DNA of 64,000 bases from Undibacterium hunanense (lineage in GTDB: Bacteria > Pseudomonadota > Gammaproteobacteria > Burkholderiales > Burkholderiaceae_D). Of the stretch, positions 31,668 through 51,336 are shown piece after piece. Location: positions 1-64,000 of the forward strand of contig NZ_JACOGF010000020.1 of the NCBI RefSeq assembly GCF_014284335.1. The letters are read 5' to 3'. The notes beneath the pieces are model-generated. The model was not told where the DNA came from and searched no databases. It saw nothing but the letters and a program-made list of their open reading frames with translations. The translations under genes and the position numbers were made by a program. How positions within the stretch are numbered: position 1 is the stretch's first letter; every line of letters starts with the position of its first letter.

Positions 31668-33233
31668 TTAAAAAATAGCGCACATGTCTTTACATGTTTC
31701 TTCATAGCCTTTTGGATCAGTCAATATTTTCTTTTTTAAATCATCATCGTCATCTATTTCGTCGAGCAGTCTGTCAGTATTGTCGATGCGCTGATTCTTA
31801 AACTGATCACTGTCTTTTCCAGCAGCGCCACTTAACTCATGGATACCAAATTTCTCGGGATCGATGATATCTTCAGGATCAATCTTATTGCCTTCCACTT
31901 GCTGGCTCTTCAACACCAAAGACGGAATAAATTCATGGTTGCGCAAGGACTCCAGGGCATACAGATACTTGAAGTGTTCACTTCCGCCACCAACTGTTGG
32001 ATAGAGATTATTTTCAGTCAGGCTGGCATAGCTGCTTTTCCCTTTGGTTCCCGCCAGAGAAACATGAGTAACCGCCAGCAAATCCTTGTAAGTGCGCAGA
32101 TTGCTTTGGTTGGCTACATTAACAGAAAAATGTACTTGCCCAATCGAAAAATGAGCTGTGAACCGAGCATTGCTGTTTCTGTCAATCACATTGGTAAACA
32201 TCTTTTTTAAGATAAGGTGCAAATCGTTGACCTTGTTTCCCTTATTTTGTTTCGCTTTCTTTAAAATGCCTTTAGAAACTTCAAAAATTCCCGTGATGCG
32301 TTTGAGTTTCGTAGAATTTATCTTAGAACGCCTGCCTCTTACTGATTGTGATTTTCGTATGTGCTCAAGAACAAAATCCGATTTTTTTATTTTCTTTTTA
32401 TCGTCTGGTGCAGGAACCTCTACCAGGGCCTTCTTCTTTTTATCATAAATATAGTGCCTGTTTGGGTCATCCATTTTTTCCCGCATCTCTTTTGGATCAA
32501 CGCCTTCCAGTTTAATCGCATTCTTATACGGGTCTGATCTGGCCGTTTTTAGTTTATGGACAATACGCTGCACGGGCACGTGCTCATACTGCCGATCGGC
32601 TCCAGGCGATGAAGCAGACTGCGCGCTGATCTGATTTTGTGCGACGCGCTTTTGTTGTATCGCCCCGCCCTGACTCAATGCCTTTGCCCCCATGACATCG
32701 GCTTCCTGTTCCAGCCCGGCATCATCATTGACGGCAACACCCTGTTTGATTTTCAAGGTAGGACGAACCCGTCCTTGCGCCTGCTGCACCACATGCCAGG
32801 CTTCATGCGGCAAATGCTGTTCTTGCCCCGGTGCCAGGTGGATGGCATTGCCCTGGGCAAAGGCATGCGCCTTCAGCTGGGCTGGTTTGGACGAATTGTA
32901 ATGCACGCGCACATCGTCCATGCGCATGCCGGACAGGGCTTCTATGCCTGCTTTTAACTGGGCTGGCAAACCATTGGCCTGTGCAGAAGATGCCACCGGT
33001 TTGGCTTCCTTGCCTGGTTTTCCCTGCTCCATCAACTGGGCACAGGCTTGCAGTCGCCGTGCTTGCGGACTGTGGTTGGCCATCTGCTGCAACTTTCGCT
33101 GCGCAAGGGCGGCGGGCCGCTGATCATGCACGCTGGCAGCCACTGTAGCCAGTGTCTGTTTTTGCCGCGCATCAACGCCTGTCATAGCCCTTGGCTGACA
33201 GGGTTCGGCTTTAGCAAAAAAAGGTGCTTTCAT
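31668..33233 (-). CDS. DUF4157 protein A, eCIS-type cargo with unknown C-terminal payload and CaaX-like end
   Basis: A 521-residue protein. Residues 86-190 form a DUF4157 module (GLPAQLKAGIEALSGMRMDD, then [19 protein letters not shown]), with a HEAWH zinc-protease-like motif at 143-147. DUF4157 is known to mark cargo of extracellular contractile injection systems. The Lys-rich C-terminal part (about 225-521) is not recognised; it has no signal peptide or membrane segment, an acidic EIDDDDDLKKK stretch, and ends in Cys-Ala-Ile-Phe, a perfect CaaX box. Two paralogues lie at 39884 and 48832. It is less similar to them than they are to each other. Confidence 0.82.
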   Translation of the reverse strand: MKAPFFAKAEPCQPRAMTGVDARQKQTLATVAASVHDQRPAALAQRKLQQMANHSPQARRLQACAQLMEQGKPGKEAKPVASSAQANGLPAQLKAGIEALSGMRMDDVRVHYNSSKPAQLKAHAFAQGNAIHLAPGQEQHLPHEAWHVVQQAQGRVRPTLKIKQGVAVNDDAGLEQEADVMGAKALSQGGAIQQKRVAQNQISAQSASSPGADRQYEHVPVQRIVHKLKTARSDPYKNAIKLEGVDPKEMREKMDDPNRHYIYDKKKKALVEVPAPDDKKKIKKSDFVLEHIRKSQSVRGRRSKINSTKLKRITGIFEVSKGILKKAKQNKGNKVNDLHLILKKMFTNVIDRNSNARFTAHFSIGQVHFSVNVANQSNLRTYKDLLAVTHVSLAGTKGKSSYASLTENNLYPTVGGGSEHFKYLYALESLRNHEFIPSLVLKSQQVEGNKIDPEDIIDPEKFGIHELSGAAGKDSDQFKNQRIDNTDRLLDEIDDDDDLKKKILTDPKGYEETCKDMCAIF

Positions 33234-39883: not shown

Positions 39884-41605
39884 TCACTTTAAGGCTTTGA
39901 TAAAACTATCTCGATGAACAAGACGATATTTCTTACTACCTTTTATCTTCTCCATATCATTGACATGTGTTTCACCGACCTTCCATACACCTTTGCCAGT
40001 AGCAGCGTTTGCAGCCTCATGCATATTTTCTGAGCGCTGCTGAGTAATATCTGGTTCGTCGAGGAAGGGGGACCTTATCGATTGTTTTCCAAATTTTCCA
40101 ATATCGTCCGCTATTTCCATCACATTATATACAACGTCGTCGTATCTACTTACTGCATCGTGGGCCTCCAGACCCTGTAAAACTGTATTATGTCTGCTTG
40201 ACAATGGAGACAGCAATTTTGCCCATAAGATATATTCCCTCATATTGAGTTTGCCAGCAAAGGGGGATTTTTTCTTCCTGAACAGAGCGTTAATTGAAGA
40301 AATTTCTGCTTTCATTCCATTCATGAAACGATTTTCACCTGCCTTCATAGATTCGATCAGCTTGGCAACAATTTCACTTTTCTTTGTAGTCGTCAGATTC
40401 TGCATCAAAGCAAAATCCAGGGCAGATATTGACAATCTCTCGTAAAAATCCTTGGACCGGTAGACCAGATCTGCCATTCTCAAATATTTGTCATCGCCCC
40501 AATCGTCATCAGTGCTCAACGCAAATTGCTCTTCTCCCCAATACCCGGCATCTTCACCCAGAATACGCTTGGTGTAGTTTGTTTCAGCAAGTCGCTGGGG
40601 ATTTGATTCATCGTGGTTTTCACCGACAACATTCAACTTGCCCGTAGTCAAAGGACTCGCGCCCATCAAGTAACTGATGATTTTAGAAACACTCCAGATG
40701 GCCGCTACCGTTGCAATAGCAGTCAGCGCAAAATACAGCGTGGTGGGTGCCATACCCAGGGCCGCAGCCACACTGGCAAAGTTTGCTTCCACACCGAAAT
40801 ACAAGGCCAGCCGCTGCAAGGTTTCACCATACATCTGGACCGGTGCAGAACTACCCTGTGCCGCATTGACCGTCACTAGCTGGCGTGAAGCACCAGCTGT
40901 TGCTGTTGCGTCGACGGTATCCACGTGCATGCCTGCATGCTGCCCACCCTGTCCGGCAAACAGGTTGGCACCAGCACTCAGGGCCTTCGCCCCCATCACA
41001 TCCGCCTCAGCTTCCAGACCCACATCGTCATTCACTGCCACGCCCTGCTTCATCTGCATGGTGGGCCTGACACGCCCCTGGGCCTGTTGCACCACATGCC
41101 AGGCTTCATGTGGCACGTGCTGCTCTTGCCCGGGCGCTACATGGATTTCGCTGCCCTGCGCATAGGCATGGGCGTTCAGTTGCGCTGGTTTGCCGGAGTT
41201 GTAGTTGACCTTGACATGGTCCATGCTCATGCCGGACAGGGATTCTATGCCCGCCTTGAGTTGATTTGGCAGGCCAGTATGATTGGCTTGGGGTGCGGCT
41301 TGCGCAGCGAATTGGGCAGTACCACGGTCAGTAGATTTTTTTTGCAGCGATTCTTCGTCTTGCGCTTTTTGCAGCATCGCTTTATCCATCATTGCCTGCA
41401 CCGCTTTAAGCTGCATAGCGCGAGGGCTGTTTTGCATCATGTGACTATACGCTTTAAGCTGCCTGGCTTGCGGGCGACGATCAACAAATCCAGACGCACC
41501 TTCATCTATGCTTTGTTGGGTCAATGGCGCGCCACGGCGCTGAGCAAGTGCCCCTTGCCGGACTTGATCGACGGCCTTCCGACTTTGATAACTTTGCTCA
41601 GACAT
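39884..41605 (-). CDS. DUF4157 protein B, eCIS-type cargo with hydrophobic segment and paired GxxH payload
   Basis: A 573-residue protein. Residues 42-72 repeat an ARQLKA/AMQLKA motif. Residues 110-210 are a DUF4157 module with HEAWH at 166-170, close in sequence to protein C. After a spacer, a hydrophobic segment (about 286-314) precedes a payload beginning [12 protein letters not shown] and ending [13 protein letters not shown]. The two GxxH motifs (328-331, 544-547) frame the domain, as in the TIKI/TraB/EreA-like group, but I cannot confirm that assignment. No signal peptide is seen. Confidence 0.8.
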
Positions 41606-48831: not shown

Positions 48832-51336
48832 TCAATCGTCTTTATGTGTATTCAAATACATTTCTTTCGCTACGTCTTTCACCCTGGTTTCACTGATGTG
48901 ATTAACACTGATTTCGATGGCTGCCTGAATTCCGGGCTTATGTTTAGCAATGACGCTTCCACGATAGTACACACAATCATTGCTGGGTTCGTATCGGAAG
49001 ATAGGGAAATCTGTGTTTTTGAAATCTTCGATCATGCCCGTTTTGATTATTTCATCACTTCCTTCTGCCATGACATATCCAGCATCATTCAATGACTGTT
49101 TTGCATCTCCCAACATAAAGCCCAGCATTTTATCCCTGGTCTCAGGTTCTCTATAGACACCCTGCATTGCCTTCTTAAAGTCAAGCGTGGCAATTGGGAC
49201 TATGCGTACCCCATGTATACTTTTAACTCTTTCCTGCAAATAGGAAATGAGCCGGCCCTTGTTTCTATCTACAGCACTGATTCCTTCCGCAATACCGTCG
49301 AGAAAAGCCCGGTTGTATTTACCGCCGGGTTCATAAGACTGTGTCCTTACTTTGCTGAGATATTCGCCACTTGGTTCAGTTTCGTCATCTTCGGCGTTAT
49401 CACCATCTCTCCAGGCGTCAAATTCTTCATCCGTACAGAAGTAATTGGGTGTTTTCGCACCGTCCTTGGCGAAGGTAGTCAGCGTTGAATGAATCAGGGT
49501 CGCATTCCATGCTTCACTCATCATGACATCAGGCAGAAACGATGTTTCTGCATCGACTATCACTGGAATACCGCCGCTACTTGTATAAATATTTTCCTGA
49601 TGCAAGTCTGTGACACCCAGCAATTTCGTTGCAATGACCATGCGCCCCATCTGATAGTAATATCTCCCCGCTTCTTCTATGGTCAGGCGTTTGGCCTTGG
49701 TGATATGTTCCATGTAGCCATATTGCTCGCCCTTATTGTCTTCTGTCTGGCTAAATTTAGTAGTAGCCAGCTCTGTGTTCAGGTCGGAAAGCACGCTTTT
49801 CTTGCCACCTTCGAGATGGATGTCAGGGCTTAACGTCCTGGGTTTGTACACTACTTTTTTACCCTCATCCGACTCAAGAATACAGACACTTTGTCCGTCA
49901 TTATGGTAGTCCGACCCAGTCAGATGCACGTGGACCAGGTGTTGCGATAATCCGTATTCATCACGAATACTAACCCAGTCACCTTCTATACGATCCAGCA
50001 TCTTCCTGAAATTCCGGTTTAACAGCCCTACTCTTTTTTGGGCAAATTCCAGATGCCCAGCCTTCACCGAATCCTGACGAATTTTGGAGGTATCCAACTC
50101 ACCAAGAATAGCCGCCTTGATGACTTCTTTGTTTTTTTCTGACTTTAAAACAATGGGGAGTTTCGAATACGTACTGCAGACCAGATATACCAGACGGGAT
50201 GCATCCGGGCCGCGGCTGCTCTTATCGATCCATTCAGCGATCTCTAAGGGATAGGCTCTGTCGTACTCAATCCAGGTTTTAGTGATGGCGGAAGATATAT
50301 TATCCAATCGATAGAAAATTGCTTTGAGAGTACGAAGCGTAGTTGCGTAATTAAGGGTCGTAATGGTTGAAGCTTCTATTTCATCAAAACGGTTTCTCAA
50401 TACAGAAATCTGCTCGCCACCCTGACTTTGTTCAAACGGTTTCATGGAATCCAGAAACTCTTTCACCCTCTTTTCCTGCGCCAGCAACTCATCTTCTTGC
50501 TGATTCTGGAACCAGTTGGTAAGGCGATTCCAGCCTTGAAAACGCTCAAATTTCATTAGCTGATAGGGCATGACCACACTGCTGTAAGCAGATGCTGCAG
50601 AATAATCAGGCGCAGCGGTTCTTTGATTACCCACTCCCTTGTTCTGTACCACCTTTCCACTTATAGCCGTACCAACACCCAGCGCCTTCGCCCCCATCAC
50701 ATCCGCTTCGGTTTCCAGGCCTGCATCATCATTCACCGGCACACCCAGCTTCATCTGCATGGTCGGTCTGACCCGCCCCTGTGCCTGCTGCACCACGTGC
50801 CAGGCTTCATGCGGCACATGACGTTCCTGCCCCGGGGCTACATGAATCTCGCTACCCTGTGCATAAGCGTGGGCATTTAACTGTGCGGGTTTGTCAGAGT
50901 TGTAGTTGACCCTGACATGATCCATGCTCATGCCGGAAAGCGATTCTATGCCGGCCTTGAGCTGGTTAGGCAAACCGGTGTTGTTGGGTTGGGCCGTGGA
51001 TTGTCCGGCTAATTGGGTAGTACTGTGATCAACAGATTTTTCTTGCAGCAGTTCTTCACCTTCTGCCTTTTGCAATACAGCTTGATTCATCAAGTGCTGC
51101 ATCGCCCGCAATTGCGTGGCACGCGGGCTGTTCTGCATCATGTGGCTATAGGCTTTGAGTTGCCTGGTTTGTTGGCGCTGATCAGCGAATTGTGGACGAA
51201 GGTCGACGGGATCTTGCTGGGCCAATTGTGCAGTGTGCGACTGTGGCTGCGACTGCACAGCAGATTGACGCTGGGCAGGCGCATGCTGCTGCCCCAGATC
51301 CATTTTTTTGCGTGCTTGACGAATATGCTCAGACAT
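48832..51336 (-). CDS. DUF4157-DUF4135 fusion: eCIS-type cargo with LanM-like dehydratase domain
   Basis: An 834-residue protein. Residues 57-80 carry RQLKA/TQLRA repeats and 120-220 a DUF4157 module with HEAWH (176-180). From about 400 to 834 it follows the DUF4135 lantibiotic dehydratase domain: GSDYHNDGQSV (Asp476, His478), VVYKPR (Lys498), TDLHQENIY (Asp577, His579, Asn582), VDAET (Asp595), Arg711 and Thr717 six residues apart, and DFPIFRYEPS. These match the phosphorylation and elimination residues I know for LanM enzymes. It has no LanC-like cyclase domain, precursor peptide or transporter nearby, so it is unlikely to be a lantibiotic maker. Confidence 0.85.
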   Translation of the reverse strand: MSEHIRQARKKMDLGQQHAPAQRQSAVQSQPQSHTAQLAQQDPVDLRPQFADQRQQTRQLKAYSHMMQNSPRATQLRAMQHLMNQAVLQKAEGEELLQEKSVDHSTTQLAGQSTAQPNNTGLPNQLKAGIESLSGMSMDHVRVNYNSDKPAQLNAHAYAQGSEIHVAPGQERHVPHEAWHVVQQAQGRVRPTMQMKLGVPVNDDAGLETEADVMGAKALGVGTAISGKVVQNKGVGNQRTAAPDYSAASAYSSVVMPYQLMKFERFQGWNRLTNWFQNQQEDELLAQEKRVKEFLDSMKPFEQSQGGEQISVLRNRFDEIEASTITTLNYATTLRTLKAIFYRLDNISSAITKTWIEYDRAYPLEIAEWIDKSSRGPDASRLVYLVCSTYSKLPIVLKSEKNKEVIKAAILGELDTSKIRQDSVKAGHLEFAQKRVGLLNRNFRKMLDRIEGDWVSIRDEYGLSQHLVHVHLTGSDYHNDGQSVCILESDEGKKVVYKPRTLSPDIHLEGGKKSVLSDLNTELATTKFSQTEDNKGEQYGYMEHITKAKRLTIEEAGRYYYQMGRMVIATKLLGVTDLHQENIYTSSGGIPVIVDAETSFLPDVMMSEAWNATLIHSTLTTFAKDGAKTPNYFCTDEEFDAWRDGDNAEDDETEPSGEYLSKVRTQSYEPGGKYNRAFLDGIAEGISAVDRNKGRLISYLQERVKSIHGVRIVPIATLDFKKAMQGVYREPETRDKMLGFMLGDAKQSLNDAGYVMAEGSDEIIKTGMIEDFKNTDFPIFRYEPSNDCVYYRGSVIAKHKPGIQAAIEISVNHISETRVKDVAKEMYLNTHKDD

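Follow-up and report, generated by a model that had tools for sequence, protein, structure and literature searches.

The locus and its modular architecture

The window analysed here comprises the first 64,000 nucleotides of contig NZ_JACOGF010000020.1 of Undibacterium hunanense and encodes, on the minus strand, a protein in which an N-terminal DUF4157 module is joined to a large payload with a DUF4135 match. Two further DUF4157 proteins are encoded in the same window. The features are as follows.

48832..51336, minus strand: DUF4157/DUF4135 fusion protein, 834 aa (intact ORF with ATG start; Pfam)
50776..50973, minus strand: eCIS_core (DUF4157), residues 122-187 (PF13699, 32.9 bits, cut-off 22)
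50797..50811, minus strand: HEAWH metallopeptidase-like motif, residues 176-180 (sequence)
48835..50571, minus strand: payload module, residues 256-834 (blastp; G+C below that of the N-terminal module)
49531..50019, minus strand: DUF4135 match, kinase-like lobes, residues 440-602 (PF13575, 133.9 bits, cut-off 29; a partial match to profile positions 16-176 of 378 only)
39884..41605, minus strand: second DUF4157 protein, 69% identity in the N-terminal module, with another payload (blastp, Pfam)
31668..33233, minus strand: third DUF4157 protein, with another payload without Pfam match (blastp, Pfam)

The reading frame and the N-terminal DUF4157 module with HEAWH at residues 176-180, both named in the preliminary description, were borne out by Pfam scores over cut-off and by the sequence, and the domain search proposed there placed PF13699 and PF13575 over their curated cut-offs within the same 834-aa protein, which is the only DUF4135 match in its genome. 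The genome holds nine DUF4157 matches in all, three of them inside the window. The N-terminal 240 residues share 47-69% identity over 191-226 positions with the eight other DUF4157 proteins (blastp); the payload matches none of these (best E 0.37), and their own payloads gave no match above any Pfam cut-off. G+C content is 0.449 in the payload versus 0.546 in the N-terminal module, and GC3 is 0.47 versus 0.57, with six other genes of the window at 0.60-0.67. A payload so unlike both its own N-terminal module and these six genes in composition fits the expectation for a swapped payload.

As for the other DUF4157 proteins, the payload at 39884..41605 contains a 13-residue stretch with a GE-H motif that recalls the Ntox2 'GEsH' motif described in the toxin catalogue of PMC3482391, and GC3 declines across the gene at 31668..33233, from 0.58 to 0.42. 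Elsewhere in the genome, two DUF4157 proteins (L021:7061-9511, 816 aa, and L018:6544-9777, 1077 aa) carry long C-termini without other Pfam match.

Homologues and distribution

Two homologues of the payload were recovered, both from Bacteroidota. The first, L034 (positions 202-2427; Bacteroidetes MAG, genome G786), matches residues 259-826 at 46% identity, and the second, L080 (genome G1493), matches at E 3.5e-97 with 30% payload identity. HEAWH is kept in L080. L034 retains the payload, and of its DUF4157 module just the initial portion, without the HExxH core; the motif may be dispensable, or the L034 gene may be decaying. In the tree the three fusion payloads grouped together (100/100) to the exclusion of 32 LanM-type rows, with long-branch warnings, and the branching order within this clade was poorly supported (63/0). 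The payload of the window is closer to L034 (46% identity) than L034 is to L080 (32%), which suggests transfer between phyla. Among the LanM-type sequences, the LanM of G073, a genome of the same family, was identical to that of Oxalobacter formigenes over the tree columns.

The fusion is rare. It was present in one of 43 genomes of the genus, and three of 392 genomes of the family gave a match, the other two being LanM-like. Across the phylum 9/398 genomes matched, comprising the window gene, seven LanM-sized proteins that carry cyclase-like Cys motifs, and a single short frame (L033). Three Bacteroidota samples, which share some genomes, gave 9/399, 5/395 (the source of L080) and 3/359; in the first of these samples, four of the eight matches other than L034 (L067, L068, L069 and L072; 1088-1105 aa) were sorted by frame length only. 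The contig collection of GTDB species was scanned with two degenerate peptide patterns only; among the 28 loci matched, L034 alone was a homologue of the whole payload and none carried HExxH ahead of the match. Further fusions may have escaped a scan limited to two patterns. Four scans of viral contigs found no relative, and the one matching phage record was not a further fusion. Among plasmids, 160 records matched the payload query and 157 the whole-protein query, none of them over 80% of the query at any one place; of the rows listed (30 and 60 for the payload, 15 for the whole protein), those with names were LanM/DUF4135 or DUF4157 proteins and one bare 'hypothetical protein', and many were unannotated.

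The surveys also returned DUF4135 proteins whose frames, 516-652 aa long, include no cyclase (L066, L081, L082, L090 and L038), four from the Bacteroidota samples and one from Oscillatoria, which could be split biosynthetic enzymes or something else.

Rarity of this order, at 1/43 genomes of the genus and 1/392 of the family, would suit a decaying or non-functional fusion. We consider such decay hardly probable at all, as the 834-aa frame is intact and the catalytic residues described below are retained across phyla.

The payload retains the LanM catalytic residues

The LanM model TIGR03897 scored 119.4 bits on the DUF4135 part, under its cut-off of 304, and a phmmer search against solved structures returned CylM (E 9e-15) and LicM2 (E 1e-9) as sole matches. 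The catalytic and conserved positions, with their CylM equivalents, are as follows.

49903..49911, minus strand: D476-x-H478, P-loop residues (CylM D252/H254; phmmer and LanM alignments)
49843..49845, minus strand: K498 (CylM K274; phmmer and LanM alignments)
49591..49608, minus strand: DLHQEN with D577, H579 and N582 (CylM D347/H349/N352; phmmer and LanM alignments)
49552..49554, minus strand: D595 (CylM D364; phmmer and LanM alignments)
49186..49206, minus strand: RIVPIAT with R711 and T717 (CylM R506/T512, elimination; LanM alignments, HMMER weak)
48997..49011, minus strand: DFPIF, residues 776-780, a conserved stretch close to where the dehydratase domain ends (LanM alignment)

Residues D476, H478 and K498 correspond to CylM 252, 254 and 274 in an ungapped phmmer stretch, with positions counted by hand. 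In the CylM mutagenesis reported in PMC4550811, K274, D347, H349, N352 and D364 were assigned to phosphorylation, and D252, H254, R506 and T512 to elimination. All nine residues are present in the payload, each matched by 28 or 29 of 29 LanM-type rows, and none of the nine differs among the three fusion-type payloads (the window protein, L034 and L080), which share only 30-46% identity. The complete phosphorylation and elimination set claimed in the preliminary description was thus recovered at the positions given there and extends to both homologues. Of the 24 columns at which 90% or more of the 29 rows agree, the protein keeps the LanM residue at 20, as against 19% at 427 other columns. These rows, taken from other genomes, are a subset of the LanM-type sequences fetched (29 for the residue comparison and 32 for the tree); they exclude L033, L047, the second L054 frame and L056, and include a few cyclase-less DUF4135 proteins, namely L038 and, in the tree, also L066, L081 and L082.

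The predicted LanM-type dehydratase domain was upheld by profile comparison: two fusion-type payloads aligned to the 29 LanM rows with E 1.5e-32 over residues 441-807, with R711 and T717 in register. The region after residue 600 (KA) aligned alone by hhalign gave a score of 30.3 and a pairwise E of 5e-4 at a probability of only 31%; 0/200 column shuffles reached that score (maximum 20.5) and a reversed control gave 9.2. With HMMER against CylM the KA region stayed sub-threshold at -3.2 bits, and R711 fell on CylM R506 within that stretch. Four near-invariant LanM positions are changed, at L429 (P), I682 (F), F720 (Y) and M768 (E), and the second Arg of the LanM RxxxRxT motif (25/29 rows) is I715 here and non-Arg in both homologues too. 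We therefore assign the kinase half of a dehydratase firmly from these comparisons, and regard the elimination half as likely present but with less assurance; the changed positions, I715 and the weak scores of the KA region mean that elimination may be weak or lost.

These observations bear on whether the payload might be a kinase only, in which case the eCIS effector would add phosphate to Ser/Thr of proteins in the target cell and leave it in place. Its phosphorylation residues are complete, divergence is greater in its KA region, which lacks the second Arg as well as Tyr and Glu at positions 720 and 768, and such a role has been proposed earlier as 'Tox-Peptide Kinase' in the toxin survey of PMC3482391. 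Yet R711 and T717, which serve elimination in CylM, are kept in 3/3 payloads although their neighbours changed, and we regard the kinase-only account as rather unlikely. The retention of D476, H478, R711 and T717 in all three payloads at 30-46% identity was counted in favour of the dehydratase reading.

Search for a lanthipeptide cluster

No LanC cyclase accompanies the domain, in agreement with the preliminary description. The protein ends 54 residues past DFPIF, leaving it without the LanC domain of a LanM synthetase, and LANC_like gave no match at E 0.01 in the whole genome; a split LanM partner was rejected on the same ground. No neighbouring ORF was common to the homologue loci within 6 kb at E 1e-3: apart from the gene, the only ORFs matching the homologue loci were two antisense shadows that lie within it. 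A paired immunity or precursor gene was considered improbable, the loci having no common neighbour in this range. A loose filter for small precursor-like ORFs within 6 kb left five candidates, unconvincing by eye.

The DUF4135 enzymes characterized in PMC10676384 have co-encoded precursor peptides as their substrates, and by analogy the protein might be a maturation enzyme that works inside the producer, on a peptide or on some other component or cargo of the eCIS, its tag being incidental. Against this stand the lack of LANC_like in the genome and of a neighbour ORF common to the loci, as well as the DUF4157 module and the effector position of the homologue L080 within an operon, and we judge a maturation role quite improbable.

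Association with an extracellular contractile injection system

DUF4157 is an eCIS effector marker in the surveys of PMC8213781 and PMC11297309. The U. hunanense genome encodes an eCIS cluster on contig C43 that comprises Pvc16_N, a sheath (which passes the cut-off of the C-terminal sheath family alone), two gp19 tubes, CIS_tube, a spike, PAAR, gp25, Baseplate_J and an AAA ATPase. The fusion gene lies on a different contig (C22), and an eCIS-adjacent location was not found for it. In G1493 an AAA ATPase, a 192-aa ORF, an HNH protein and then L080 follow each other on the same strand at the 3' end of the eCIS operon. On contig C7 of G786, a stretch of about 21 kb contains a sheath match together with an AAA ATPase and a DUF4157 gene; this genome has two DUF4157 matches, and L034 itself is on contig C86.

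The link to eCIS drawn in the preliminary description is therefore sustained by eCIS genes in its own and both homologue genomes, and the proximity survey suggested there found L080 within an eCIS operon and the window gene away from its cluster. The three marks of an eCIS-associated toxin, namely an N-terminal DUF4157, a C-terminal payload and an eCIS in the genome, are all found. Delivery of the fusion protein by an eCIS is well supported, and the loading itself is predicted from sequence.

Two other loci were noted in passing. The HNH protein directly before the homologue (L083:16566-17105, 179 aa) has a cargo-like N-terminus by eye and no DUF4157 match. In U. hunanense, a second sheath-like match, weak and below cut-off (E 0.005), occurs in a 525-aa frame at G000:C12:85387-85629 (L012, L015/L016), and the ORFs around it are unlike an eCIS cluster by eye.

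Proposed function

We propose that the protein is a cargo of its own bacterium's extracellular contractile injection system, for which the N-terminal tail and the DUF4157 module would serve as loading mark, and that its C-terminal ~580 residues act as a LanM-type dehydratase freed of the cyclase. In the target cell this domain would bind ATP and phosphorylate Ser/Thr of a protein by means of K498, D577, H579, N582 and D595; the phosphate would then be removed in the same pocket through D476, H478, R711 and T717, and the resulting dehydroalanine or dehydrobutyrine would inactivate or cross-link the target. The basis of this proposal in the sequence is the domain identity, the residues, the modular architecture, the eCIS in the genome and the homologue inside an operon; loading, catalysis, elimination, the target and harm to it are predicted from these. 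We give an even chance to this reading, in which an eCIS effector would phosphorylate Ser/Thr of a target-cell protein and probably go on to dehydrate them. That one injected enzyme would perform both phosphorylation and dehydration, with no need for a kinase of the target, is a tentative and somewhat doubtful part of it. LanM enzymes normally require a leader peptide, which makes activity on a folded protein uncertain. The missing immunity partner has been argued to fit a distant target for such systems in the discussion of PMC3482391, and the lack of an obvious one here would fit such a target.

A kinase-fold effector with other chemistry, such as AMPylation, glutamylation or phosphorylation of small molecules or lipids, was also weighed. 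Kinase folds often switch chemistry, as in SelO and SidJ. The payload gave weak PI3K matches, which do not discriminate, since CylM too has a lipid-kinase fold (PMC4550811). The retention of all nine LanM residues speaks against such a switch, and we find it very improbable.

If the effector reading with dehydration is right and the enzyme is active, lantibiotic dehydration chemistry would be used against proteins of other cells, and an irreversible protein-modifying activity would join the list of eCIS cargo. In eukaryotes, LanC-like enzymes couple glutathione to dehydro-residues (PMC9934072); an active effector would bear on the reason for this addition, and, were the dual phosphorylation and dehydration true, these enzymes could counter it.

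Comparison with known systems

The LanM class II synthetases CylM and LicM2 share with the fusion protein the dehydratase domain and the nine catalytic residues, whereas the latter lacks LanC and a convincing precursor, has a DUF4157 N-terminus and falls in a separate clade (100/100, with long-branch warnings). The CcaM-type LanMbC enzymes presented in PMC10676384 resemble it in DUF4135 dehydration without ring formation, but their substrate is a RiPP precursor and they are fused to a cyclase-like domain. The phosphothreonine lyases OspF and SpvC generate protein dehydro-residues of the kind predicted here and are a precedent for such residues as an effector product, as outlined in PMC9934072. 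The insect symbiont Cardinium encodes a 556-aa protein with distant LanM similarity, read in the account of PMC12560110 as possible lanthipeptide biosynthesis, and this protein may deserve the same effector question.

OspF and SpvC act on pre-phosphorylated Thr and are unrelated in sequence to the fusion payload. With the eCIS-associated DUF4157 toxins of PMC8213781 and PMC11297309 the protein shares the order of N-terminal DUF4157 and C-terminal payload in an eCIS genome; the main texts of these two papers hold no words starting with lanthi- or lanti-. The literature search returned no work joining eCIS with LanM, or contractile injection with dehydroalanine; one apparent hit, 'LanM' in PMC13377157, was a mere piece of a DOI.

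The preliminary description took a lantibiotic fold in a delivered enzyme to be undescribed, and in this it was anticipated: Zhang et al. (2012; PMC3482391) listed a 'Tox-Peptide Kinase', kin to the kinases of lantibiotic synthetases and found with a PVC-metallopeptidase (equivalent to DUF4157) in Firmicutes, and suggested phosphorylation of target-cell Ser/Thr. The likeness, drawn from the motifs and the description given in that paper, lies in the joining of the metallopeptidase to a lantibiotic-synthetase-type kinase, and its four motifs (DxH, YKP[KR], DxHxEN and DxE) all occur in the 834-aa protein, as DYH, YKPR, DLHQEN and DAE. The earlier members were from Firmicutes and were called kinases, whereas those described here are from Burkholderiales and Bacteroidota and carry the full elimination set. 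The fusion idea itself is older; what is new relative to 2012 is this complete set, the Burkholderiales and Bacteroidota members and the location within an eCIS operon, by which a brief prediction grows into a small testable family that spans two phyla, has a complete site for phosphorylation and elimination and includes a member in such an operon.
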